64,000 nt of DNA from Asanoa hainanensis (lineage in GTDB: Bacteria > Actinomycetota > Actinomycetes > Mycobacteriales > Micromonosporaceae): NCBI RefSeq assembly GCF_900188485.1, contig NZ_FZPH01000014.1, positions 186,001 to 250,000 of the forward strand, read 5' to 3'. Shown piece by piece: positions 1 to 13,245 of this stretch. Position 1 is the stretch's first letter. Each line of letters opens with the position of its first letter. The notes under the pieces are model-generated. The model ran no database searches. It was not told where the DNA came from and was given only the letters and a program-made list of their open reading frames with translations. The translations under genes were made by a program, and so were the position numbers.

Positions 1-229
1 GCTGCGCCACCCGGGCGTCGTCGCCCGGCAGATCGGGACGGCCGCGCTCTCGCCGGACTGCCAGCGGTGCCGACTCGTACGGGTGTGCGGCGGCGGCCAT
101 TACGCCCATCGCTACCGGCCAGGAGCCGGCTTCCGGAACCCGTCGGTCTACTGCGCCGACCTGATTCGGTTCATCGACCACGTGGGCGCGCGGGTGCGAA
201 AGGACGTCGAGCGGGTGACGCGCGGATGA
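1..229 (+). CDS. fxsB: FxsB-type radical SAM/SPASM maturase, C-terminal fragment
   Basis: This is the last 75 codons of a gene that enters from the left; the reading frame is open from base 2 and stops with TGA at 227-229. The fragment has the cysteine pattern of a SPASM auxiliary iron-sulfur domain: a CxxC pair (DCQRC), then VCGGG and a histidine/arginine run (HYAHRY), then a last Cys in NPSVYC. That combination matches the C-termini of FxsB-family radical SAM peptide maturases, which make cyclophane crosslinks in FxSxx-COOH RiPP precursors. The radical SAM CxxxCxxC core lies outside the window, so catalytic competence cannot be judged. The stop overlaps the next start (ATGA), so the two are translationally coupled. 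Confidence 0.75.
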   Translation, partial: LRHPGVVARQIGTAALSPDCQRCRLVRVCGGGHYAHRYRPGAGFRNPSVYCADLIRFIDHVGARVRKDVERVTRG

Positions 230-1506
230 GAACCCATCGACTGGCCGAAGCGGACCTCGACGCCCTCGCCACCGGGCTGGGCGGCCCCGCCCTCGTCGGC
301 GACCTGCTGCTGGGCCAACGGAGCCGCCGGCTCCTGCTCCTGAAGCTGATCACGGAACGGTCGCCCGGGCTGACCGCCGAGCATCGGCACGCGCTCGCCG
401 TGCTCGGTGAGGCGGACCGGCACGACCCCCGCTCGGTGGCGGCCCTGGTCGACACACCGATGTTCGGGAGCTGGTGCGGCTCGACCCTGGGCCTGATCGC
501 CGGCGGGGCGGAGCCGTGGACGGTCGAGCGGCAGCTTGACCGGATCGTGCCGTACGCCGCGGTGGCGGCCCACCGTGCGGGCATCGCGGCCGAGCTGCTG
601 GGTCGGGTCCATTCCGGCACGGTGCTGTTGCCGACCCTCGGCCTGATGCGGTTGGCGACCGGGCACCAGGCCCAGGTGAAGTTCGTCAGCGGGTCCGACG
701 GCATCTGGGTCGACGGGCGCGAGGCCGCGCTCCACACGCCGGGCTGGCAACCGCTGCGCGTGCTGCGGGCGCCCGGTCCGCCCGCGGTCGCGGTGCCGAT
801 CGACGACCTCGATCCGGGCCGCGACAGCTACCACATCGAGGCCAGCCCGCGGCTCACCAGCCCGACGGTCGCCCGTTGGCAGCAGGCGTTCGCGGCCACC
901 TGGCAACTCGTCGCGCGGCACCTGCCCGAACGGGCGGCGGAGCTGAGTGTCGCGTTGCGGACGGTCGTACCGTTGCGCAAACCCGACCTCCAGGCGGCCC
1001 GCAGCGCGACCGCGCGGGAGGCCGTCGGGGCCGTCGGGTTGGATCTCCCGCTGTCCCACGCCGAGTTCGCGACGACGCTGGTCCACGAGATCCAGCATTC
1101 GAAGCTCACCGCGGTGATGGACATCGAGCCGTTGTGCGCGTACTCCGGTGAGGCGACCTGGTTCGCACCGTGGCGCACCGACCCTCGGCCCCTGGCGGGC
1201 CTGCTGCAGGGCATCTACGCCTTCCTCGGCGTCGCGGACACCTGGCGTGCCCTCTACACCGGTTCGGACGGGTTCCCCGAGGCGCCGAAGCAGTTCGCCC
1301 GGGCGCGGGCAGACGTGACCGCGGCCGTCGAAGGGATCGGCCCGACGGACGAGCTGACACCAGCGGGACGCCGGTTCGTGGCGGGGATGGCGGCCGCCGT
1401 CGACCGGCTGGGCTCGGTCAGCGTGCCCCGGTCACTCGTGGCCGAGGCCGAAACGCGTGTCGCCGCCAAGCGCGTGGCTTGGCGGCGACATCGCGGGCTG
1501 GACTAG
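226..1506 (+). CDS. HEXXH motif-containing putative peptide modification protein
   Basis: A 426-residue protein starting at the ATG that overlaps the FxsB stop; a longer upstream reading (from 67) would lie inside fxsB and is rejected. The zinc-site motif is intact: HEIQH with His287, Glu288 and His291, preceded by a hydrophobic strand. About 30 residues downstream are the tryptophan-rich YSGEATWFAPWR segment and DPRP, as in the HEXXH family associated with radical SAM maturases. Related domains are often fused to FxsB as an extension, sometimes degenerate; here the domain is separate with its motif complete. The likely role is a second modification or hydrolysis step on the FxsA-type precursor (inference). 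The 3' end overlaps the convergent fxsT by 4 bp. Confidence 0.8.
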   Translation: MRTHRLAEADLDALATGLGGPALVGDLLLGQRSRRLLLLKLITERSPGLTAEHRHALAVLGEADRHDPRSVAALVDTPMFGSWCGSTLGLIAGGAEPWTVERQLDRIVPYAAVAAHRAGIAAELLGRVHSGTVLLPTLGLMRLATGHQAQVKFVSGSDGIWVDGREAALHTPGWQPLRVLRAPGPPAVAVPIDDLDPGRDSYHIEASPRLTSPTVARWQQAFAATWQLVARHLPERAAELSVALRTVVPLRKPDLQAARSATAREAVGAVGLDLPLSHAEFATTLVHEIQHSKLTAVMDIEPLCAYSGEATWFAPWRTDPRPLAGLLQGIYAFLGVADTWRALYTGSDGFPEAPKQFARARADVTAAVEGIGPTDELTPAGRRFVAGMAAAVDRLGSVSVPRSLVAEAETRVAAKRVAWRRHRGLD

Positions 1507-4500
1507 ACCGGTGGTGGCTCGATGTCGCAGTTGATGCGGCGGCCGTCCATGGCCAACAGGGTGTCGGGATGGGCCGGGCCGATGTTGGGCATGCGGCGCA
1601 TCTTGTCGATCGTGTCGGCGCGCAGGGTCTCGCCTTCGGCGCGCTCGCCGGTCGCGATCAGGTCGACCGCGTGGTTGACGGCACAGGCCAGCGTGTATGG
1701 GTGGTCCTCACCACGCACCTCGCGGGAGTGCTGCAACGTCCGTGCCGACAGCTCGCAGGCCGCGGCGTTCTCGTTGAGCGCGTCGAGGTCGCTGGCCAGG
1801 TTGGTCGCGCAGCACAGCGTGTAGGGGTGCTTCTCGCCGAGCTGGCGGCTCAGCCCTTCGAAGGCCTCCTCGTTGAGCTTCCGCGCTTCGCGGACGCGGC
1901 CGGCCTGGCGCAGCACGATCGCGTGGTTGGCACAGCACACGTAGTAGAACGGGTGCTCCGGAAGGCGCTCGCGGTAGACCTCGAGCGTCTCCTGGCCGAT
2001 CCGGACCGCCTCGGCCACCTCGGAGTTGTCGCGGAGCGCGTTGAGCAGCGTCTGGTTGACGAGCAACGTCTCCGGGTGGTTGTCACCGAGCCGGTTGCGG
2101 AAGGCCAGCCGCAGCGCCTTCGCGTCCTCGGCGGCCTTGTTGACCTGACCGAGCTTGCGCATGCTCATGACGATCGTGCGGCGGGCGAGCAGCACGAAGA
2201 GGTCGTCGACACCGAGCGCGCGGTCGAGCAACGGTAGCTCTTCGGACTGGCGGCGCAGTGCCTCGTCGAACCGACCGAGCGAGTAGAGGTCGCGAGCCAC
2301 GTTGGACGAGCACACCAGGGCCATCCGGTCCTCGGGACCGAACATCCGGCGCGCGGTCGCGGCGGTCTCCTCGTCGAGGTCGAGCGCCTGGTCGTAGTCA
2401 CCGACCATGCGGAGGTCGACGCCGAGGTTGCTGGCGGACCGCAACGTCGCCCGGTCTTCGGAACCCAGCACGACGAGCTGCGTCTGGTAGTTCTCGTCGT
2501 CCAGGTCGCGGGCCTCGGCGAACCGGCCCAACGCGCGCAGGTCGGCCGCGTAGGTGTTGACCGTGGCCAGCGTGTGCTCGTGGCTGGCCCCGAGCGTGTC
2601 CCGGAACAACGAACGCAGCTCGTGGTTGATGCGCAGGGCCTGCGAGGGGAAACCGAGGGCCCGGATCGCGTTGGCGCCGTGTCGCCGGGCGATCAGCGTG
2701 AAGACGTCTTCCCGGTTGCCGTGGCTCTCCCAGATCTGGACGGCCTGGGTCGCGAGCGCGTTGCTCGACTCGAAGTCACCGATCAGATAGCGGTAACGGA
2801 TCTGGTCGAGCACGACCTGGCGGTGTTCGTCGTCGTCGGACTGGACCACGCCCGAGGCGACGATGTGCGCGGAGAGCTGTGCGTGCTTGCGTCGCTCGTC
2901 CTCGTCGATCAGGTCAGGGTTGCCGGGGTTGGCGTAGGCGAGCATCTCCTGCACCGTCTGGCGGACCTCGTCGCGCAGTTCCTGGGTCATGTCGGCCTGG
3001 ACCATCGTCTGGACGAGCCGGTGGATCTGGAACCGGGTGTTGCGGCTGTCGTAGCGGGCGAGCTCCAGCCGGTTGATGTCGCGCACCGTGCGGACCAGCG
3101 GCGCCTGGTCGCGGAGCACCTGGCCGAGGCTCTTGGAGAACTTGGTGGCCAGTCGCCCCCGGTGGAGCATGTCGAGGGAGATCCATTCCGGGCCGAAGTA
3201 GGACCCGAGCTGCAGCAGCTGTGCGGCGAGCTTGGAGACGCTGCGGAGCTGCTCGAACGCGATGTTCATCGCCGCCGCGGCCTCGCGCGGATATTCGGGG
3301 CGCTGCTCGTCGGGGCGGCGCTCCAGCTCCTCGTTGAACAGCTCGAGGTAAGCCGAAGCCGGCTGGCCGGTCTCCTTGAGCCAGGCGGCGGCCTGCGCCA
3401 GCGAGATGGGCAGGTCCTGCAGGCGCTCGGCGATCTCGTCGGCCTCGGCCTCGCCGGTGCTCGCCCGGGCGCGCAGGAGCGTCACGCTCTCGCTGCGGTC
3501 GAAGCTGCCGACCTCGACGGCCCGGCCCTCGGTCTCCCAGCCACGATCGCGGGTCGTCACGAGCACGTGCCCGTTGCGCGGGTCGGGCAGCAGGTCACGG
3601 ATGGTCGACGGCTCGCCGACGTTGTCGAACACGATCAGCCAATGCGGATAGGGCTTGCGGCCGGCCAGCGTGTCGCGAACACGGCGGATGGTCTCGGACG
3701 TGTCGTTGGTGACCGGGATGTTGAGCTCGTCGGCCAGGTCGACAAGGGAGCGCCGGACCTCGGCCGGGTCTTCCGCCGCCACCCACCACACCAGGTCGTA
3801 GTCTTCCCGGTGCCGGTGGACGTATTCACCCGCCAACTGCGTCTTCCCGACGCCGCCCAAACCGTATAGTGCCCGCGGCAGCAAGATCGCCGTCTGGCTG
3901 CGATTGACGAGCATGTTGCGCAAACTAGCCAGCATATCGTCACGGCCGACGAAATTGGCGTTCTGCGGCGGGATCGACTTCCAACCGATCGGCGTCTTGC
4001 GGCTTCTCGTCGCGGAGGACGTCTGCTGGGATTCGATCACCTTAGCGTCCTCACCTGGGGAATGGCCAGATTCACTACTGTTTTCTACCACAGATGGGTG
4101 AGTCGGCGGGCCGGTGGCTCCAGTGTCGACGGTGGCTGTAGAACTGGATATATCCCCAGGTGGGGAGCCATTTATGAGATCGGTTTCGGCGCTTCCATCT
4201 GTTGCCTGATTGATCTGTTTCTCCAGGCGGAGGGCCTTGTCGCGGTAGGTTCCCCCGATCGACTTCAGCACGTCAATAGTGATCTTGGCGAACGCCAGGC
4301 TGCGCTCGTCGAGTTCGCCGACAGCGCGGTCCATCTCGAGCAGTGCGAGGAAGTCCAGGTCAGCTCCCCAGCGCTGGACGAGATAGCGGGAGACCTCGGT
4401 CAGCACGCCCAGGGCGTCGGCGCGGCCGAGCTTGGCAACCAGTTCTTCGCGTACGCCGGGCAGGAAGTCATAGGTGGTTTCGGGCGGGTCGGCGCCTGAA

Positions 4501-5882
4501 CTTCCGTTCACTATTTCCAGCAGGTTTCCCAGAAAGACTTCCGGCACTGTGCTCGGCGGCGATAACGGCAACTTCGCTTCTTTGATCAGCCGAATTACCG
4601 GGAGCGTAAGGGGCCCCGCGGCGGCCAGTAGTTTCGCCAACTCGTATGCGTCCGGCGATGCCTCGGCGACGAATCGCGCCACGACGTCGGGCGGCGTCTG
4701 CGCCCGGTCGTCCTGCGGGTCGGGGATGCCGCGCATGAGGCCGGTGAACGCCGCCCGGCCCGGCAGCCGTTGGGACCCCTCGCCCGAGACCAACATGGCC
4801 CAACTGGCCAGCCAGCGCTCCGCGAGCTCGATCACCGGGATAACGCTGCCCAGCGCGGCCAACTCGTCCGGCTCGGTCTCGAAGTCGGCGAAGAACAGGT
4901 CGTCGAACTCCACCGACAGGTGCCGGTTGGGTGCGCCGGGTCGATCCCCGCGGAGCGTCACCTCGCGGGTGGACAGTCCCGATCCCTCCCAGCGGCGTTG
5001 CGGCAGCGGCTGGACGACCGCGACGGGCGCGGACCTCGCCCACGCGTCGAGGATGTCTCCCATCCGCCCGTCCCGCCAGCCGGCGCCCAGGCAGTCGGCC
5101 ACGACGACGATCGCCCGGCGGCCGGAGGGGTCGACGATCTCGCGCGGGTCGTGCCACGGCGTGTCGGGGCCACCGGCTCGGACCCGTGGCTGGCTGTCCT
5201 CGCTCGTGCTGTCGACGAACCAGACCCGGACGTCCCGGAACGCGCCCAGGTCGTTCAGGATCGCCACGAGGTCGTGCACGGTCTGGTCCGAGACCACCAT
5301 GGACGGCGCGAGGTCGACGACCACCGCGACGTCGAGCCAGCGCTCGGCGCGGGGCGCGAAGATCGGCACGAGCAGGTCGGTCTGTGCGGCCTGGCGGGCG
5401 GTGGCGTCCGCGTCCAGCGTCCCGACCCCCTTGCCCCGGACCTGCTGTTTGAGCGGTCGCAGGGCGCGCGCCATGCCGAGGCGGGCGAGCGCGGGCGCGG
5501 CGGGCACGCGCAGCGGTACCTGCGACGGTTCCGGCTGGTCCCGCGGCACCTGGATCGCGACCTGCGGCGCGGGCTCGAGCGGAGTGGTCTGGGCCGGAAT
5601 GAAGACCGCCGGCTCGTCGTCGTCCGGCTCCCGCTCGTCGTCGGTCACCGGCTCGACGGGCGGCCCGGCCTCGACGCCGCCGGCGGCCTCGTCGCCGAGC
5701 GACGACGGGTCCGCGGCGTCTGTCGGGCCGCCGTCGTCGTCACCCTGCGGTGCTTCTTCGGCGCGCCGTGGGCGGAGGTGGCCGGCGAACCAGATCAGGT
5801 CCGCGACGCTGTCTGGCGTGGCATCGTGGTCCGCCTGCCGCAGGAGGCCGATCGCGCGGTCGATCAGCTCGTCGCCGCTCAC
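1503..5882 (-). CDS. fxsT: FxsT-like protein: SAV_2336/vWA-like domain, NB-ARC NTPase, TPR repeats
   Basis: A 1459-residue protein with a GTG start whose GTGA overlaps the MoxR stop. Residues 1-50 form a small helical domain. Residues 180-350 look vWA/SAV_2336-like (RWLDVAVVVDLAPSM), where the metal-site motif reads DxAxS rather than DxSxS. Residues 645-930 form an NB-ARC NTPase with Walker A GLGGVGKTQ (674-682) and a DDLP-like DPRNGHVLVTTRDRG segment. From about 1050 to 1440 are many TPR-like repeats with alternating LGRFDEA and LG-x-DHP motifs. The linker (560-640) is Ser/Thr-rich with lower GC. The layout matches the FxSxx-COOH system tetratricopeptide protein family and STAND NTPases, which sense ligands through repeats. 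The function here is inferred. Confidence 0.8.
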   Translation of the reverse strand: MSGDELIDRAIGLLRQADHDATPDSVADLIWFAGHLRPRRAEEAPQGDDDGGPTDAADPSSLGDEAAGGVEAGPPVEPVTDDEREPDDDEPAVFIPAQTTPLEPAPQVAIQVPRDQPEPSQVPLRVPAAPALARLGMARALRPLKQQVRGKGVGTLDADATARQAAQTDLLVPIFAPRAERWLDVAVVVDLAPSMVVSDQTVHDLVAILNDLGAFRDVRVWFVDSTSEDSQPRVRAGGPDTPWHDPREIVDPSGRRAIVVVADCLGAGWRDGRMGDILDAWARSAPVAVVQPLPQRRWEGSGLSTREVTLRGDRPGAPNRHLSVEFDDLFFADFETEPDELAALGSVIPVIELAERWLASWAMLVSGEGSQRLPGRAAFTGLMRGIPDPQDDRAQTPPDVVARFVAEASPDAYELAKLLAAAGPLTLPVIRLIKEAKLPLSPPSTVPEVFLGNLLEIVNGSSGADPPETTYDFLPGVREELVAKLGRADALGVLTEVSRYLVQRWGADLDFLALLEMDRAVGELDERSLAFAKITIDVLKSIGGTYRDKALRLEKQINQATDGSAETDLINGSPPGDISSSTATVDTGATGPPTHPSVVENSSESGHSPGEDAKVIESQQTSSATRSRKTPIGWKSIPPQNANFVGRDDMLASLRNMLVNRSQTAILLPRALYGLGGVGKTQLAGEYVHRHREDYDLVWWVAAEDPAEVRRSLVDLADELNIPVTNDTSETIRRVRDTLAGRKPYPHWLIVFDNVGEPSTIRDLLPDPRNGHVLVTTRDRGWETEGRAVEVGSFDRSESVTLLRARASTGEAEADEIAERLQDLPISLAQAAAWLKETGQPASAYLELFNEELERRPDEQRPEYPREAAAAMNIAFEQLRSVSKLAAQLLQLGSYFGPEWISLDMLHRGRLATKFSKSLGQVLRDQAPLVRTVRDINRLELARYDSRNTRFQIHRLVQTMVQADMTQELRDEVRQTVQEMLAYANPGNPDLIDEDERRKHAQLSAHIVASGVVQSDDDEHRQVVLDQIRYRYLIGDFESSNALATQAVQIWESHGNREDVFTLIARRHGANAIRALGFPSQALRINHELRSLFRDTLGASHEHTLATVNTYAADLRALGRFAEARDLDDENYQTQLVVLGSEDRATLRSASNLGVDLRMVGDYDQALDLDEETAATARRMFGPEDRMALVCSSNVARDLYSLGRFDEALRRQSEELPLLDRALGVDDLFVLLARRTIVMSMRKLGQVNKAAEDAKALRLAFRNRLGDNHPETLLVNQTLLNALRDNSEVAEAVRIGQETLEVYRERLPEHPFYYVCCANHAIVLRQAGRVREARKLNEEAFEGLSRQLGEKHPYTLCCATNLASDLDALNENAAACELSARTLQHSREVRGEDHPYTLACAVNHAVDLIATGERAEGETLRADTIDKMRRMPNIGPAHPDTLLAMDGRRINCDIEPPPV

Positions 5883-6898
5883 GACTGCCCCGATCGCGCC
5901 TCTCGGATGAGGCTGCCGGCCATCATCCGCTTTCCGTCATCGCCGTCGCCGCCGGCGGTGTACAGGTAGGCGGCATTGAGGAGCAGGTCGGTGGGCAGGC
6001 CGCCGGCGGCGTCCCGGGCGGTGGTGAAGTCCACGCAGAGCTGCTCCGTGGCGGCGAGGGTGTCGGCTCCGAGCTGGGTGCGGACGATCTCCTTGAGCTT
6101 CTCCTCGCCCGGGAGCGGAATGGTCACCTCCTGGCAACGACGGAGGAAGGCCCGAGGAAACACCCGCTCGCCGTTGCTGGTGATGATGATGATCGGGAAG
6201 GCCCGGGTCCGCACGTGGCCGCCGCGTACCAGAACCGTGTCGCCGTCCTCGGTCGTCAGGGCGACGGGCTCCGCTCCCTCCTCCCGGACCAGCTCGGGGA
6301 TGGTGAACTGGCCCTCTTCGAGGATGTTGAGCAGGTCGTTCGCGAGATCGATGTCGCCCTTGTCGAACTCGTCGACGAGCAGCACGCGGGGCTTGTCGCG
6401 GGCGACCAGGGCGGTGCCCAGCGGCCCCAGGGTGATGAACGGCCCGGCCGAGGTGGTCGGCGGGCCCGCGTCCGGGGAGAGGCGGCGGAGGTTGGCGTCC
6501 TGCAGGCGGCCCACGGCGTCGTACCGGTAGAGGCTGTCCTGCAGGTTGGACCGGCTCGTGATCGACCAGGAGAGCACCGGACCCAACCCGAGCTCCCAGG
6601 CGATGCTGGAGGCGAGCGTGGACTTGCCGGTGCCGGGCTGGCCGGTGACGAGCAGCGGGCGCCGCAGATAGAGAGCCGCGTTCACCTTCTCGACGACGCT
6701 CCTCTCCGGCCGGTACGTCTCCGCGCGGATCGCGGTGCCGGGCCGCGCGTCGCGGACCGGGTGCCGCGGCTCGTCGCCGGTCGCGATGATCTCGCCGTCG
6801 AACTCCCGCCACGGCGGCGGGGGAGGCAGGCGGTCGAAGTCGGTGTGCTGCTGGCCCTCACCCCGGTAGATGTGCCACGCCGAGCCGTTATCGGTCAT
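5879..6898 (-). CDS. MoxR-like AAA+ ATPase of a VMAP system
   Basis: A 339-residue AAA+ protein. Walker A is GQPGTGKST (86-94) and Walker B is VLLVDEFDKGD (from residue 172); sensor 1 lies in IIITSNGERVFPRAFLRRC, with an arginine-finger candidate there. The proline-rich N-terminal stretch (PPPPPW, 25-30) is typical of MoxR proteins encoded beside vWA and VMAP proteins. It starts with ATG overlapping the VMAP stop, and its stop overlaps the fxsT start, so all three are likely one transcript. In such triads the MoxR ATPase is proposed to couple the protease-like VMAP to the vWA/STAND component (family knowledge). It is distinct from the MoxR at 20373-21524. Confidence 0.88.
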   Translation of the reverse strand: MTDNGSAWHIYRGEGQQHTDFDRLPPPPPWREFDGEIIATGDEPRHPVRDARPGTAIRAETYRPERSVVEKVNAALYLRRPLLVTGQPGTGKSTLASSIAWELGLGPVLSWSITSRSNLQDSLYRYDAVGRLQDANLRRLSPDAGPPTTSAGPFITLGPLGTALVARDKPRVLLVDEFDKGDIDLANDLLNILEEGQFTIPELVREEGAEPVALTTEDGDTVLVRGGHVRTRAFPIIIITSNGERVFPRAFLRRCQEVTIPLPGEEKLKEIVRTQLGADTLAATEQLCVDFTTARDAAGGLPTDLLLNAAYLYTAGGDGDDGKRMMAGSLIREARSGQS

Positions 6899-9327
6899 GA
6901 TCTCCTCCTGGTGGGGGCGTTCAGGTCAGGGCCGCTGGACGGGGTCGGCGTGCGTTCTTCGTCGCAGACCATCAAGGTGAGCTCGGCTGCGAGTGGGTCG
7001 TCGGCCGCGTCGGCGGCCCGCCAGGCAGCCACGACGTCGACGAGCGCGCGCACGGGGCGCTCGGCGAGCGCTTCCTCGAGCCGCGTCCGCATCGTCCCCT
7101 CGAGTTCGGGGTCACGCACCCAGAGCAGATAGGCGATGCCGGCAGACAGCGCGGCCGCGTACGCGTCCGGGGCAGGTTTGTCGGGTTGTCTGGCCGGTGG
7201 CCCACCCATGGCGAGGAGCAGCTTCTCGTCGCCGCGGAGGGTCTCACGGACCATCAGCGGGGTGTCGGTGCTCGCGTGGCCGAGAAAGTGCATCGCGCTC
7301 GGGTCCGGATCGCGTTGCGCCTGCGCGAGCTTCCACTTCTTCCGCCACTGGGACCGGACCTTCGGCTCCCGCATCCGTTCGAGGCTCCGCAGCACCACCG
7401 GGAAACGGCGGCCGATCTGGTCCTCGAGGAAGTTGTCCGTGATCGGCCAGGTGTCGACCGGCTCGGTGACCAACGAGCGGGGCACGGCCACCTCGATCAT
7501 GAAGGTGTCGTCGTAGTCGACGATCTCGAGCGCCCGGTCGATCGTGGCGTCGACCTTCCGGATGAGCTCGTCGAGCGGTTGCGGCTGGTCGCTGGCGACG
7601 AGTTGCCGGCGCGCGGCGCCGCCGCGGTCGAGGACGATGGCGAGCAGGAACTGGCTGCGGTCGATGGAGTCGGGCACGAGCTGCACGCTCATCACCGGCC
7701 GCTCCAGCGGGACCGTCAGCGACGGCACCGACCGCCGCAGCGTCGCCACGTCGACGTAGTGCGCCCCGAGCCGGGCGCTCACCCGGTCGCCCCAGTCGTG
7801 CAGCGCGCTGCGCAGCTCCGGCAGCGACGCCGCGAGATGTTCGGTGAACTGGATGATCCGCGGAAGCTGGTCGGCGCGGCTCGACAGCGACTCGATCCGC
7901 CGGACCAACTGGTCGGCCTGGGTCCGGTCGGCGGTGGCCACCGACTCGAACGGGTCGACGCAGGCCCGCTGTGCGGCGTTGAGCACGTCGTCGGGTGCGG
8001 TGCTCGCCTGGGCGACGAGCTCGTCCCGCTCGCCGTCGGTCAGGATGCGTTCGATGCAGATCTGCTCGACGACGAGCATGAGCTCGCCGAAGCCCGTGCC
8101 CTGCGTGCGATCCGCCGGTGGGATGCCGTCGACGAACAGCCGGAGCGACCCGGCGATCGGCAGGCAGACCTCGATCAGGTTTCTCGCGTCGGCGTAGACG
8201 TCGTTCGACACCGCCAGGGTGACCTCGCGGTGGAGCTTGTCGCGTACCCGCCGGGCAAAGGTCTCGAAGTAGACCCGCCGGGTCGCGAGGTCCAGGAAAT
8301 AACGCATGTGCGCGAGGGCGTCCGTGAGGTTGCGCACCTGGTTGGCCGTCAGCACGTCGGGCGTCTCCGCGGACGGGGTCTCGCGCGGCACGCCGTGGCG
8401 GTCGAGCGCGGTCTCCAGCGCCTCCGCGAGCGCGGTGGGTCCCTCGAAGTACTTGACGAGGTCGGCGAAGCGGCGCAGGTCCTGTCGGGTACGGCAACTG
8501 TCCACGATGTGCGCCAGGGAGTGTGGAGGTGGCCCGATCTCCGCGCGGACGTCGGCCGGCAGGAGCGCGACGATCCGTTCCTGGTGGTGGAGCAGCGCCT
8601 CCGAGCCGTCGAGCTGACCGAGCACGTGGTGTGCGGCGGCGGGGGTGACCAATCCTCCATTGTGGTCGTCCAGCATCCGGGCCAACGGGCTCCAGCGCCC
8701 GGCGACGACCTCCATCGGGATCATGAACGCGGCGACCCGCTCCGACCCGGTCACGCTGCTCACCACGATGCCCACGACGCGGTCGCCGACCAGGACGCCG
8801 CCGCCGCTGAAGCCCCGCTCGATCCGTTCGTTGTGCCTCGCCATCCCGCCGGAGAGCTGCACGAGCTCGTTGGCGGGGCCGACCGTGTCGGCGATCCGGC
8901 CGTCGCTCCACACGCCGTGGTCGACGCCCCGCGGGTGGCCGAAGACCTTGGCGGACCGGCCCTGCTTGTCGCGTCCCTTGCCCAGGGTCGCGGGGGCGAC
9001 GTCGGCGGCCAGCGACGTGGCGAAGCGGAGGACGGCGATGTCTCCCTGGCCGTTGGGGCCGATCGGAACCCAGCCGTCCTGGACGACCTCCGCGACGGTG
9101 TCGGTGGCTGTCGCCGACCGCGGGAAATGGAGGACGAACGGGCCGGTGGGCCGCTTTTTCTGGGTGGACAGCACGTGGGCGCACGTGATCACGTCGCGGT
9201 GGGACACGAGGACGCCGCAGCCGAGAACCTGGCCGTGCTGGTCGGAGATCCGCACCTGCCACGCGCCGGCCGAGGGCTGTGTATCCACGGCAGCGGTCAA
9301 GACTCCCCGCCCGGGTTCCGTTCCCAC
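6895..9327 (-). CDS. Trypsin-like peptidase fused to VMAP (vWA-MoxR-associated protein)
   Basis: Up to 810 residues. Residues 20-230 form a trypsin-fold protease with an apparently complete triad: His51 (TCAHVL), Asp96 (GDIAVLRF) and Ser174 (GFSGGG, in place of the usual GDSGGP). A helical segment (about 235-320) could be an effector-associated adaptor domain. The rest is VMAP middle and C-terminal regions, with the characteristic late elements DDTFMIEVAVPRSL and LLLAMGGPPARQPD. No signal peptide or membrane segment is seen, so it should act in the cytoplasm. The start is uncertain: GTG at 9327 overlaps the upstream gene by 31 bp, while TTG at 9300 gives the 4-bp overlap seen elsewhere in this operon and removes 9 residues. 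Confidence 0.85.
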   Translation of the reverse strand: MGTEPGRGVLTAAVDTQPSAGAWQVRISDQHGQVLGCGVLVSHRDVITCAHVLSTQKKRPTGPFVLHFPRSATATDTVAEVVQDGWVPIGPNGQGDIAVLRFATSLAADVAPATLGKGRDKQGRSAKVFGHPRGVDHGVWSDGRIADTVGPANELVQLSGGMARHNERIERGFSGGGVLVGDRVVGIVVSSVTGSERVAAFMIPMEVVAGRWSPLARMLDDHNGGLVTPAAAHHVLGQLDGSEALLHHQERIVALLPADVRAEIGPPPHSLAHIVDSCRTRQDLRRFADLVKYFEGPTALAEALETALDRHGVPRETPSAETPDVLTANQVRNLTDALAHMRYFLDLATRRVYFETFARRVRDKLHREVTLAVSNDVYADARNLIEVCLPIAGSLRLFVDGIPPADRTQGTGFGELMLVVEQICIERILTDGERDELVAQASTAPDDVLNAAQRACVDPFESVATADRTQADQLVRRIESLSSRADQLPRIIQFTEHLAASLPELRSALHDWGDRVSARLGAHYVDVATLRRSVPSLTVPLERPVMSVQLVPDSIDRSQFLLAIVLDRGGAARRQLVASDQPQPLDELIRKVDATIDRALEIVDYDDTFMIEVAVPRSLVTEPVDTWPITDNFLEDQIGRRFPVVLRSLERMREPKVRSQWRKKWKLAQAQRDPDPSAMHFLGHASTDTPLMVRETLRGDEKLLLAMGGPPARQPDKPAPDAYAAALSAGIAYLLWVRDPELEGTMRTRLEEALAERPVRALVDVVAAWRAADAADDPLAAELTLMVCDEERTPTPSSGPDLNAPTRRRS

Positions 9328-9629
9328 GCGACGGTGACCGTCATGTTGGCCTGGGCGCCGGCCTTCGCGATGACCGCGTTCGCCTCCGCCGTCACGGTGA
9401 CGCCGAACACGATCTCGATCTTCGACGGGGCCGACTCCATCGCGATCATCGTGCGCAACGCGTCGTCGGCGGTGTCGCGGATGTCGTCAAACACCTCGAC
9501 GACGGACGACGCCGCTTTGGCCAAGGCCTCACCCGCACTCGTGCCGACGCGGACGACGCCGTGTTCCTCACCGACGTCGACCCAGATCTGGCCGCCGGAG
9601 GATAGTCGCAAAGGAACAACCTGCCGCAT
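9297..9629 (-). CDS. CU044_2847-type small protein (trypsin-co-occurring domain)
   Basis: A 110-residue protein starting at MRQVVPLRLSSGG; a Shine-Dalgarno-like GAAGGGA lies about 9 bases upstream of this ATG, so a further in-frame start at 9713 is not preferred. The pattern is VPLRL..GGQIWVDVGE, then a helix with VVEVFDDIRDTADDAL, then the strand SKIEIVFGVTVTAEANAVIAK ending in NMTVTVAWER. This is the family that occurs beside trypsin-VMAP proteins across actinobacteria and has been named a trypsin-co-occurring domain. It is the first gene of the four-gene operon and may be a substrate, inhibitor or adaptor of the protease (inference). Its 3' end overlaps the VMAP gene. Confidence 0.8.
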   Translation of the reverse strand: MRQVVPLRLSSGGQIWVDVGEEHGVVRVGTSAGEALAKAASSVVEVFDDIRDTADDALRTMIAMESAPSKIEIVFGVTVTAEANAVIAKAGAQANMTVTVAWERNPGGES

Positions 9630-9696
9630 TGGTGCCCGTCCCTTCGCAAAGGATCGCATCGAGCGGCGCAACGTTGCGTGCCCGGATGGCCACGCG

Positions 9697-9702
9697 ATTA
9701 TA
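9697..9702 (-). promoter_or_regulatory. Candidate -10 element of the VMAP/FxsT operon
   Basis: A perfect TATAAT on the minus strand sits 68 bases before the start of the trypsin-co-occurring gene, within the only clearly AT-richer patch of the 9630-9828 intergenic space. No good -35 hexamer is visible 16-18 bases upstream (the sequence there reads like ACGGAG), so recognition may need an activator or an alternative sigma factor. It is the only plausible promoter seen for the four-gene operon. Confidence 0.4.
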
Positions 9703-9828
9703 TGGCCGTTCATTCACGACTCCGTATCCTCCGACTGGTGGCCGAAGGCGTACGGGCAGTGAATATCCTTTGAGGGCAGGGCTTGTGCGGCAGTCACCAA
9801 TCCGACTCAGCCGCTAAAGAGCAGCCTC

Positions 9829-10608
9829 TTAAAGCTCGTCGATCAGGTCGGCTACCGATTCGATGATGCGGCTCGGGCGGTACGGGTAGCGTTCCGCCTC
9901 TTCGCGGGTGCTGATGCCGGTCAGGACCAGGATCGTCTCCAGGCCGGCTTCCAGTCCACACAGGATGTCGGTGTCCATGCGGTCGCCGATCATGGCTGTG
10001 GTCTCCGAGTGGCCGTTGATCGTGTTCAGGGCCGACCGCATCATCATCGGGTTGGGCTTGCCCACGAAGTACGGCTTCACGTTCGTGGCTTTTTCGATCA
10101 TCGCCGCCACCGAGCCGGCCGCCGGCAGGGCGCCCTCGGTCGACGGGCCCGTCGGGTCCGGGTTGGTGCAGATGAAGCGGGCGCCGTCGTTGATCAGCCG
10201 GACCGCCCTGGTGATGGCCTCGAAGCTGTAGGTGCGGGTCTCGCCCAGGACCACGTAGTCGGGCGCGTAGTCGGACAGGACGTAGCCGACCGCGTGCATC
10301 GCCGTCGTCAGGCCGGCCTCGCCGATCACGTATGCGGAGCCGCCCGGGCGTTGATCGCTCAGGAACTGGGCCGTCGCGAGCGCCGCCGTCCAGATGGACT
10401 CCTCGGGCACGAGCAGGTCCATCCGGGCCAGGCGGGCCTGGAGGTCGCGGGCCGTGTAGATCGAGTTGTTGGTCAGCACCAGGAACGGCTTGCCGCTCGC
10501 GCGCATCCGGCGCACGAACTCGGGCGCGCCCGGGACCGGCTGGCCCTCGTGGATGAGCACGCCGTCCATGTCGGTCAGCCAGCTCTCGATCGGCTTGCGC
10601 TCGGTCAT
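9829..10608 (-). CDS. HAD-IIA family hydrolase (NagD-like phosphatase)
   Basis: A 259-residue HAD phosphatase starting at MTERKPIESW. Motif I is DMDGVL with nucleophile and acid at Asp13 and Asp15, motif II is VLTNNS, and motif IV is GDRMDTDI, with a C2-type cap between, as in NagD and 4-nitrophenylphosphatases. It should hydrolyse small phosphoesters such as nucleotide or sugar phosphates in the cytoplasm; the substrate cannot be read from the sequence. It starts 2 bp after the ferrochelatase stop and is therefore the last gene of the fabG-fabI-hemH transcript. A longer frame extends upstream but lies entirely inside hemH and has no family resemblance. Confidence 0.9.
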   Translation of the reverse strand: MTERKPIESWLTDMDGVLIHEGQPVPGAPEFVRRMRASGKPFLVLTNNSIYTARDLQARLARMDLLVPEESIWTAALATAQFLSDQRPGGSAYVIGEAGLTTAMHAVGYVLSDYAPDYVVLGETRTYSFEAITRAVRLINDGARFICTNPDPTGPSTEGALPAAGSVAAMIEKATNVKPYFVGKPNPMMMRSALNTINGHSETTAMIGDRMDTDILCGLEAGLETILVLTGISTREEAERYPYRPSRIIESVADLIDEL

Positions 10609-10610
10609 GA

Positions 10611-11648
10611 TCACGGTCTCCTGGCTGGTGGCGTGCAGCAGTCGGCTGGGCAGACGTCCCAGGCGGGAAGCGTACCGAGCCGGTCCTGCGGGCCGGTGGC
10701 GGCGATCCGTTCCTGGACCAGCTCGCGGACCATCGTCACGAAGCGGGGGTCGGTGCCAGGGGTCGCGGCGCGTACGTAGTCGAGGTTGCGGTTCTTGGCC
10801 GTCGCCGCGGCCTCGTTGTCGAGGTCCCAGATGACCTCGAGGTGGTCGGAGACGAAGCCGATCGGGCTGACCACGACCCCCGTCACCCCGGTGTCGGCGA
10901 GCGCGGCGAGGTGGTCGTTGACGTCCGGCTCCAGCCACGGCACCTGCGGCGGGCCGGAGCGGCTCTGCCACACCAGGTCCCACGGCAGGTCCGGCGCGGC
11001 GGCGGCGGCCACCAGGGCGGCGGTCTCGCGGAGCTGGGCGACGTAGCGGCCCGGCGGGGCCACCGGCGGCGGGCCGGCGGTGGTCGCCATCGAGGTCGGG
11101 ATCGAGTGCGCCGTGAAGACCAGGCGGGTGGTGGCGCGCTTGGCCGGGTCGAGCGTGCCCAGCGCGGACCGGACCGCGTCGGCGTGCGGCTCGACGAAGC
11201 CCGGGTGGTCGGCGTAGTGCCGCAGCTTCTCGATCACCGGGGCGCCGGTGCCGACAGCCGCCCGGGCCTTCGTCAGGTCCTCGAGATATTGCCGGCACGA
11301 CGAGTAGCCGCCGTACGCGCTGGTCACGAAGGCCAGCGCGTGCGTGATGCCGTCGGCCTTCATCGTGGCGACCGTGTCGGCCAGCATCGGGTCCCAGTTG
11401 CGGTTGCCCCAGTAGACCGGCAGGTCCAGACCGTTGGCCGCGAAGTCAGCGCGGATCGCGGCCAACAGGTCGCGGTTCTGCTGGTTGATCGGCGACACGC
11501 CGCCGAAGTGGTAGTAGTGCTCGGCGACCGCGGCGAGGCGCTCCGGGGGGATGCCCCGTCCCCGGGTGACGTTTTCCAGGAACGGAATGACGTCTTCCGG
11601 GCGTTCCGGGCCGCCGAACGAAACCAGGACCAATGCGTCGTACGGCAT
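10611..11648 (-). CDS. hemH: Ferrochelatase (coproporphyrin III type)
   Basis: A 345-residue ferrochelatase beginning MPYDALVLVSFGGPE. The catalytic histidine is in VFTAHSIP, and the conserved HYYHFGGVSP and acidic IPFLENVTRGRG segments are present. Actinobacterial enzymes insert iron into coproporphyrin III in the coproheme-dependent route (also called CpfC). Several actinobacterial ferrochelatases carry a [2Fe-2S] cluster; the C-terminal CPADCC plus the internal Cys in YSSCRQ could be its ligands. It lies 22 bp downstream of fabI, as hemZ follows inhA in mycobacteria. A start 22 codons earlier overlaps the fabI end and is less likely. Confidence 0.95.
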   Translation of the reverse strand: MPYDALVLVSFGGPERPEDVIPFLENVTRGRGIPPERLAAVAEHYYHFGGVSPINQQNRDLLAAIRADFAANGLDLPVYWGNRNWDPMLADTVATMKADGITHALAFVTSAYGGYSSCRQYLEDLTKARAAVGTGAPVIEKLRHYADHPGFVEPHADAVRSALGTLDPAKRATTRLVFTAHSIPTSMATTAGPPPVAPPGRYVAQLRETAALVAAAAAPDLPWDLVWQSRSGPPQVPWLEPDVNDHLAALADTGVTGVVVSPIGFVSDHLEVIWDLDNEAAATAKNRNLDYVRAATPGTDPRFVTMVRELVQERIAATGPQDRLGTLPAWDVCPADCCTPPARRP

Positions 11649-11670
11649 CAGACGATTGTGCCTTGCCCGG

Positions 11671-12453
11671 TCAGACGGTCGTCGCCTCGGCTCCCAGCGC
11701 GTGATATCCACCATCGACGTGGATGATCTCGCCCGTCGTGGCGGGGAACCAGTCGGAGATCAGCGCCAGGACGGCCTTGGCCGCCGGCTCCTGGTCGCTC
11801 AGGTCCCAGCCGAGCGGTGCCCGGTTGGTCCAGGCGTCCTCGAACTGCTCGAAGCCCGGGATCGACTTGGCCGCCATCGTGCGCAGCGGCCCCGCCGACA
11901 CCAGGTTGCTCCGGATGCCCTGCTTGCCCAGGTGCAACGCCAGGTAGCGGGACGCCGACTCCAGGCCCGCCTTGGCCACGCCCATCCAGTCGTAGACCGG
12001 CCAGGCCTTGGTCGCGTCGAAGGTGAGGCCGACCACCGAGGAACCCCGCTGCATCAACGGCAGGGCGGCCATGGCCAGGGACTTGTAGGAGTAGGTCGAG
12101 ACGTGCAGCGCGGTGGCCACGTCTTCCCAGGTGGTCTCCAGGAAGTTGCCGCCGAGGGCGCTGGCCGGCGCGAAGCCGATCGAGTGGACGAGGCCGTCGA
12201 TGCCGTCCATGTGCTTGCCGACCTTCTCGGCCAGCGTGTCCAGGTGCTCCTGGTTGGTCACGTCGAGCTCGATCACCGGCGCCTCGGCGGGCAGCCGCTT
12301 GGCGATGCGCTCGACCAGGGACATCCGGCCGAAGCCGGTCAGGACCACGGTCGCGCCGTTCTCCTGGGCCAGCTTCGCCACCGAGAAGGCGATCGACTGG
12401 TCGGTGATCACGCCGGTGACGAGGAGGCGCTTGCCCTCCAGCAGTCCTGCCAC
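11671..12453 (-). CDS. fabI: NADH-dependent enoyl-ACP reductase (FabI/InhA)
   Basis: A 260-residue enoyl-acyl-carrier-protein reductase, the last reductive step of fatty-acid elongation. It begins MAGLLEGKRLLVTGVITDQS, the FabI/InhA variant of the Rossmann glycine motif. The catalytic Tyr and Lys are in YDWMGVAKAGLES, which closely resembles the InhA motif. SIGFAPASALGG and GPLRTMAAKSIPGF are further family signatures. Its stop lies 22 bp before hemH and its start 39 bp after fabG, in the mabA-inhA-hemZ order. Length is normal for the family (about 260-270). Confidence 0.96.
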   Translation of the reverse strand: MAGLLEGKRLLVTGVITDQSIAFSVAKLAQENGATVVLTGFGRMSLVERIAKRLPAEAPVIELDVTNQEHLDTLAEKVGKHMDGIDGLVHSIGFAPASALGGNFLETTWEDVATALHVSTYSYKSLAMAALPLMQRGSSVVGLTFDATKAWPVYDWMGVAKAGLESASRYLALHLGKQGIRSNLVSAGPLRTMAAKSIPGFEQFEDAWTNRAPLGWDLSDQEPAAKAVLALISDWFPATTGEIIHVDGGYHALGAEATTV

Positions 12454-12492
12454 GGTGCAGCCTCTCTGTTCTTGTTCGCTCTGGTCGGGTTG

Positions 12493-13245
<753 letters not shown>

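Follow-up and report, generated by a model that had tools for sequence, protein, structure and literature searches.

A VMAP-ternary system with a fused vWA-NB-ARC-TPR protein beside an FxSxx peptide cassette in Asanoa hainanensis

We analysed a locus at the start of a 64,000-nt window of Asanoa hainanensis (NZ_FZPH01000014.1, positions 186,001-250,000), together with the 10 kb upstream of it (locus L006, in which window base 1 is L006:10001). The locus is a VMAP-ternary conflict system next to a cassette for an FxSxx-type ribosomally synthesized and post-translationally modified peptide (RiPP). An earlier note on this DNA had taken the combined circuit to be new, but peptide modules of this kind beside VMAP-ternary systems were already described by Kaur et al. 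2020 (PMC7159879). What departs from the text of that paper is the fused form found here, in which the vWA member of the system and the NB-ARC-TPR protein are a single chain. This departure stands against the main text, and a fused FxSxx example may be listed in the supplementary data of Kaur et al.

In actinobacteria, approximately 20% of the VMAP-ternary systems have a linked peptide-processing module, made up of a precursor of the FxSxx, RxD or acidic kind and a zincin-like protein (PMC7159879); we take this protein, a metallopeptidase in that paper, to be the HExxH protein of our locus. A radical SAM-SPASM enzyme (SAM, S-adenosylmethionine) occurs only with the FxSxx type, a TPR-bearing AP-ATPase is always present, and the peptide is proposed to be a toxin or a signal (PMC7159879). 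In the FxSxx type the vWA protein carries TPRs only and a TIR-AP-ATPase is encoded separately, whereas an AP-ATPase fused to vWA accompanies RxD or acidic peptides (PMC7159879). Our locus shares with the FxSxx type the precursor, the radical SAM-SPASM enzyme, the zincin-like (HExxH) protein, VMAP, MoxR, vWA and an AP-ATPase with TPRs, but the AP-ATPase, which there carries a TIR in a separate gene, is here fused behind the vWA, and a Pfam scan found no TIR in the 1459-aa fusion. In an example of the published FxSxx type, L139 from Streptomyces sp. ISL-12, a separate TIR_2-NB-ARC-TPR protein accompanies a trypsin-VMAP, Trypco1 and a vWA protein without a Pfam match; its AP-ATPase gene is co-directional, whereas here the cassette converges on the operon. 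With the RxD type our locus has in common an HExxH gene beside a vWA-AP-ATPase-TPR fusion and VMAP. Those stretches, however, lack FxsB, whereas this locus has FxsB and a precursor with an FQSALGE tail, so it does not fall under the RxD or acidic type.

With profiles iterated from the window proteins, 86 FxsB loci were sorted by the state of their vWA. The vWA was unfused in 13 (class A, of which one, L139, was checked with Pfam), FxsB accompanied the fusion in eight including this locus (class B), and no vWA was found in the examined flank of 65 (class C). The named loci are the best 80 of 202 relatives, some of them shortened by contig ends, and the class frequencies are valid for near relatives only. 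The RxD form (class D) came from 40 VMAP stretches holding 42 of the 52 VMAP-C matches not beside FxsB, with the remaining 10 left out: 22 of the 40 have HExxH, 21 being fused, 20 carrying HExxH on the opposite strand and 12 of the 22 having a precursor candidate that ends in RxD.

Genes of the cassette and the operon

The seven genes form two convergent units (Table 1). The earlier note had described the end of FxsB, an HExxH gene and a four-gene operon that meet within 4 bp, and the coordinates bear this out: the stops of the HExxH gene and the fusion gene overlap at 1503-1506. The upstream search that it proposed yielded an FxSxx-type precursor, FxsA, approximately 0.9-1.1 kb upstream of window base 1. 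FxsA exceeds the cut-off of the family model, scored on the longer frame L006:8809-9057, although its end is not strictly FxSxx, reading FQSAL and then GE. Its start ATG was chosen by alignment with Asanoa iriomotensis. FxsA looks like a real gene, because its ratio of nonsynonymous to synonymous substitution rates (dN/dS) against A. iriomotensis is 0.23 over 63 codons and VFAAFQS is identical in the two species. Across all seven genes dN/dS in this comparison is 0.18-0.36, highest for VMAP (0.36), and the genes look to be under purifying selection.

Table 1. Coordinates of the locus genes and of precursor genes at related loci. Positions without a locus name are those of the window.
Feature	Position	Strand	Size	Family match or motif
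FxsA precursor	L006:8860-9057	+	65 aa	TIGR04268 29.8 bits (cut-off 28); ends VFAAFQSALGE
FxsB, radical SAM/SPASM cyclophane maturase	L006:9054-10229 (window 1-229, C-terminal end)	+	391 aa	TIGR04269 453 bits (cut-off 370)
aKG-HExxH-type peptide beta-hydroxylase family protein	226-1506	+	426 aa	TIGR04267 152 bits (cut-off 40); HEIQH intact
vWA (SAV_2336 N-terminal family)-NB-ARC-TPR (FxsT) fusion	1503-5882	-	1459 aa	NF041121 388 bits (cut-off 200), residues 24-506; NF040586 901 bits, residues 637-1459
MoxR-like AAA+ ATPase	5879-6898	-	339 aa	PF07728 37 bits
VMAP: trypsin-like peptidase, VMAP-M0 and VMAP-C	6895-9327	-	810 aa	PF20028 111 bits (cut-off 27); PF13365 52 bits; PF19916 31 bits
Trypco1 trypsin-co-occurring protein	9297-9713	-	138 aa	PF19493 75 bits; NF041216 53 bits
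Precursor candidate beside FxsB	L156:5314-5481			core AGFADGIS
Precursor candidate beside FxsB	L157:5726-5893			core AGFAQGLN
FxSxx-like precursor and HExxH beside vWA-NB-ARC-TPR fusion	L185:7916-9455			VAGFNSSI
FxSxx-like precursor and HExxH beside vWA-NB-ARC-TPR fusion	L187:9373-10780			AAAFTNSP

The cassette is tightly packed, with ATGA overlaps at both the FxsA/FxsB junction, where the FxsB start overlaps the FxsA stop, and the FxsB/HExxH junction. The closest solved chain to FxsB is the radical SAM domain of ChlB (PDB 9gm3, E 6e-78), and solved relatives of the HExxH protein are 22nu (E 1e-32) and ChlH (8s5f, E 5e-7). Both enzymes thus match the ChlB/ChlH pair by sequence, whereas in the literature searched no STAND or VMAP partner is mentioned for that pair. 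HEXXH enzymes of the same family, PosC and PflC, hydroxylate and remove a C-terminal ARMD tail (PMC12636437). The removed tail there starts with Ala, and here ALGE follows FQS, a likeness that we treat as analogy only. The A. hainanensis genome has one FxsB match over the cut-off (and two weak ones below it), one HExxH match and one VMAP-C match, all at this locus. At two Streptomycetaceae loci (L137:12.8k and L138:12.8k), a separate FxsB is accompanied by a second gene that encodes an FxsB-HExxH fusion.

The operon reads Trypco1, trypsin-VMAP, MoxR and the vWA-NB-ARC-TPR fusion, with 4-bp overlaps at its last two junctions, and the order VMAP-MoxR-vWA is that of VMAP-ternary systems. The earlier note had taken the first three products for the VMAP triad. 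Instead, the first is the accessory Trypco1, followed by trypsin-VMAP and MoxR. Its naming of the fourth product as FxsT-like holds by the NF040586 match, but the vWA member of the triad is fused to the front of that protein. By Pfam the fusion contains NB-ARC, DUF7779 and TPR_12; its Walker A motif is GLGGVGKT, and its vWA aspartates lie in VVVDLAPS (by motif search) and VVVADCLG (second Asp, by eye). MoxR carries WHIYRG and PPWREF, matching both motifs, WxhapG and PsWRxa, given for the region N-terminal to AAA+ in the MoxR of VMAP systems (PMC7159879). The trypsin triad residues of VMAP are readable by eye in CAHV, GDIAVL and GFSGG. Its start codon is uncertain, since the gene caller favoured a start in the same frame at 9255; for Trypco1 its choice was a shorter start at 9611.

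Filing the locus under a PADLOC defence system was rejected, since the scan gave weak cross-matches only: pVip for FxsB, IetA and others for MoxR, and RT-Protease, Avs1b and LmuA for the trypsin part. Next to the operon, at 9829-13197, are a HAD-IIA hydrolase and, by eye, ferrochelatase-like and fatty-acid-reductase-like genes, all ordinary-looking. The genome also encodes a stand-alone FxsT paralogue (L159:7952-10399, G000:C6; 816 bits over NF040586) with neighbours that look housekeeping-like by eye, and we recognised no peptide genes around it.

Linkage of the two halves and exchange of modules

We surveyed 150 Micromonosporaceae genomes for FxsB and VMAP-C. FxsB was present in 82 and VMAP-C in 41 (61 matches), with both in 33. 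In eight of these 33 genomes the two are on opposite strands with 2.3-7.2 kb between them, and in none of the other 25 are they neighbours, whereas chance would give 0.15 pairs (within 7.2 kb) to 0.21 (within 10 kb) for 91 within-genome pairs and approximately 8.5 Mb per genome. The halves thus co-occur in relatives, as the earlier note had expected. All eight linked loci (L006, L153-L157, L151/L071 and L152/L080; L151 and L152 are copies of L071 and L080 and were dropped) have the vWA-NB-ARC-TPR fusion. They also keep the FxsB CxxxCxxC, the HExxH and the MoxR motifs searched, and seven of the eight keep the STAND Walker A pattern. The halves could be neighbours simply through the clustering of conflict genes in islands and share no circuit, and the 25 genomes that hold both apart are in line with this explanation. 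We consider it very improbable, as the same convergent arrangement recurs in seven of the eight linked genomes (L080/L152 being back to back) against 0.15-0.2 expected, and HExxH and NB-ARC-TPR genes are neighbours far beyond control windows, as follows.

The HExxH set comprised all 59 matches at E 1e-10 in 61 family genomes, with stretches of up to 20 kb scanned. An NB-ARC-TPR gene was found within 8 kb of HExxH in 50 of the 59, a count that includes as lacking a receptor L234 (a 3.4-kb contig) and L247 and L249 (both missed by our own HExxH profile). By contrast, none of 20 arbitrary 20-kb control windows from 10 of the genomes held such a gene, two having an isolated STAND or MoxR match. 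FxsB was in the stretch in 32 of the 59 and VMAP-C in 14; the NB-ARC-TPR gene was near HExxH in 27 of the 32 stretches with FxsB and in 23 of the 27 without it. Conversely, among the 86 FxsB loci NB-ARC-TPR lay within 7 kb in all 66 that have HExxH (within 3 kb) and in 6 of the 20 that do not (Fisher p 8.5e-12). In 11 phylogenetically independent pairs, eight differed in the same direction, none in the opposite direction and three showed no difference (p 0.0078). These data suggest that the constant core is the HExxH enzyme, with its peptide, and the NB-ARC-TPR protein, and point to the hydroxylase-family enzyme, not the cyclophane synthase, as the more constant partner of the receptor. The peptide-to-STAND signal suggested in the earlier note would fit this linkage. 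The counts and controls are ours, whereas the coupling to an AP-ATPase was noted by Kaur et al.

The front of the receptor is what varies. The vWA is fused before NB-ARC in 13 of the 50 HExxH-linked receptors; 35 of the other 37 were long enough to scan, and they matched MinD/ParA-like (19), TIR (13), VMAP-M0 (8) and EAD2 (6) domains, with multiple matches possible. Stand-alone systems with MinD/ParA-like domains were already noted by Kaur et al. (PMC7159879). At L087:12459-15680, an NB-ARC-TPR gene with an EAD2 and VMAP-M0 front converges on an FxsB-HExxH cassette that lacks VMAP. In L087, L088, L094, L098 and other class C loci, the cassette is flanked by two NB-ARC-TPR genes, the upstream one co-directional and the downstream one convergent, and the two members of these pairs, seen in several Micromonosporaceae, belong for the most part to different clades, as would be expected after an old duplication.

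The VMAP front and the peptide vary as well. Our own trypsin profile was insensitive and missed the trypsin that Pfam detects in L139, and the class B VMAPs were therefore rechecked with Pfam. Trypsin is fused to VMAP in this locus and L071, and together with EAD2 in L153 and L154. In L080 trypsin is separate, a trypsin-EAD2 protein standing beside an EAD2-VMAP (6903-8465 and 8462-9388), as though pairing of the EAD2 domains in trans took over from the fusion. Precursor candidates, found with self-made patterns, were obtained for 12 of 13 class A, 8 of 8 class B, 24 of 73 class C and 19 of 22 class D loci, some of those in class C (for example L110 and L122) being evidently false. Class B cores include AGFQSAI (two loci), AGWQSHLP and SAFGSFAE, and the two Asanoa loci have AAFQS plus a tail. 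A leader pattern L-x-[DN]-[LVI] occurs in candidates of all four classes, although the search pattern required it and this is only partly an observation. We considered whether trypsin-VMAP removes the leader after an Arg, leaving 12 residues of FxsA, and set this aside as not general, because three of the eight fused loci lack the VMAP trypsin, L080 lacks the Arg and L153 and L154 have Arg-Pro.

The trees suggest that a single lineage of fused receptors has acquired varying peptide cassettes as partners. For part of this analysis they were quick trees without bootstrap, and class C was thinned to 18 rows for STAND and 28 for HExxH. Class B and L187 group together by their vWA domains (support 92 in a quick tree, not starred), and constraining their STAND parts to a single group gives a better fit than the free tree (P value of the approximately unbiased test, p-AU, 0.859). 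The vWA of class B alone is rejected as a group (p-AU 0.0035), because L187 sits inside it. By contrast, class B as one group is rejected for FxsB (p-AU 0.0005) and for HExxH (p-AU 0.0003, or 6e-5 with L187). Because the receptors form one lineage and their FxsB and HExxH enzymes do not, modules were exchanged. Derivation of the FxsB-linked fusion from the RxD fusion by addition of FxsB is disfavoured, as a single clade of the class B and class D STAND parts is rejected (p-AU 5e-5). Since the trees have no root, an old fusion with later losses is also conceivable.

A candidate circuit and its rivals

NLR-like receptors share this build, an NB-ARC-TPR part that stays constant behind front modules that can be exchanged, and TIR is an output module in them. 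The vWA, which takes that position here, is therefore probably an output module as well and would pass a signal to MoxR and VMAP. The reading that we favour, though we give it somewhat less than an even chance, is of an NLR-like receptor that senses the modified peptide and has an exchangeable output module at its front, in this case a vWA that feeds MoxR and VMAP. The observations behind it are the genes, their intact motifs, the co-occurrence of the two halves and the exchange of modules. By analogy with its family, FxsB would cross-link the FQS motif of FxsA into a three-residue cyclophane, and the HExxH enzyme would hydroxylate (or trim) the peptide. We infer that the NB-ARC-TPR part of the last operon gene would then sense the modified peptide through its TPRs, that the vWA front would pass the state of the receptor through MoxR to VMAP, and that the trypsin domain of VMAP, with Trypco1, would fire as the output. 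This direction of signalling would agree with a proposal for other VMAP systems, in which vWA-fused ligand-binding proteins are the sensors and the N-terminal domain of VMAP is the effector (PMC10907252).

The direction proposed by Kaur et al. runs the other way: VMAP senses a threat, MoxR and vWA act as a threshold switch, the AP-ATPase-TPR protein acts as effector, and the FxSxx peptide serves as a toxin or an amplifying signal. It was published for nearly the same gene set (PMC7159879), and because the cassette here is a unit of its own, convergent with the VMAP operon, the peptide might be an independently controlled output. Nevertheless, the HExxH/NB-ARC-TPR pair has no VMAP in the stretch at 36 of the 50 linked loci, and a VMAP sensor is therefore not the constant partner of the peptide; the argument of PMC10907252 for vWA-fused sensors also speaks against it. 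We regard this alternative as unlikely, but as one to be taken seriously.

It is also conceivable, though improbable in our judgement, that the locus works by a guard mechanism. A constantly made, modified peptide would hold NB-ARC-TPR off, and loss of the modification, through starvation for iron, 2-oxoglutarate or SAM or through an attack on the maturases, would release the receptor and the VMAP protease. Such a guard would fit the same linkage counts of HExxH and NB-ARC-TPR, and the peptide cores differ by class, as expected of matched core-receptor pairs. VMAP operons without a cassette exist, however, and 18 of the 40 VMAP stretches without FxsB also lack HExxH by profile.

Several results weigh against sensing of the peptide by a receptor that acts through VMAP. 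The linkage itself cannot separate a receptor and its ligand from an effector and its regulator, and Kaur et al., as relayed in PMC10907252, have VMAP as the sensor and vWA-linked domains as the effectors. In the literature searched, some of it covered in part, we found no experiment showing an FxSxx peptide bound to a TPR protein, nor any experimental test of an FxSxx/VMAP locus. No receptor was found for nine of the 59 HExxH matches. The Walker A pattern was not found in the fused protein of L080, nor Walker B in those of L155-L157. In L155-L157, three of the eight fused loci, the VMAP beside MoxR is EAD2-VMAP-M0-VMAP-C with no trypsin by Pfam, and proteolysis is thus not a constant output. 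The precursor candidates of L156 and L157 have FADG and FAQG in place of FxS, and that of L157 had no NCBIfam family match at E 0.01. Finally, L185 and L187 keep a precursor (43.6 bits in L185; 19.0 bits, below the cut-off of 28, in L187) and HExxH beside the fusion, but FxsB was not found in their 16-kb stretches. Both genomes have FxsB copies and further HExxH genes elsewhere, and the cyclophane may be unnecessary or supplied in trans.

A broader form of the peptide-sensing reading, which we put forward only tentatively and think doubtful as a whole, would make HExxH-modified RiPPs the self-made ligands of actinobacterial NLR-like NB-ARC-TPR receptors. The peptide, the HExxH enzyme and the receptor would be constant, the cyclophane synthase and the VMAP triad optional, and receptors and cassettes would be swapped; in this locus, the TIR, ParA or EAD front would have been replaced by a vWA that plugs into a MoxR-VMAP protease.

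Both VMAP systems and FxSxx peptides occur widely among filamentous bacteria, and in the part of the literature that our search covered we found no demonstrated trigger for either. The eight fused loci are exceptions to the published rule on which parts accompany FxSxx-type, FxsB-made peptides. With vWA, NB-ARC and TPR in one chain beside a three-gene cassette, this locus offers a small system in which to ask whether a RiPP switches a STAND receptor.

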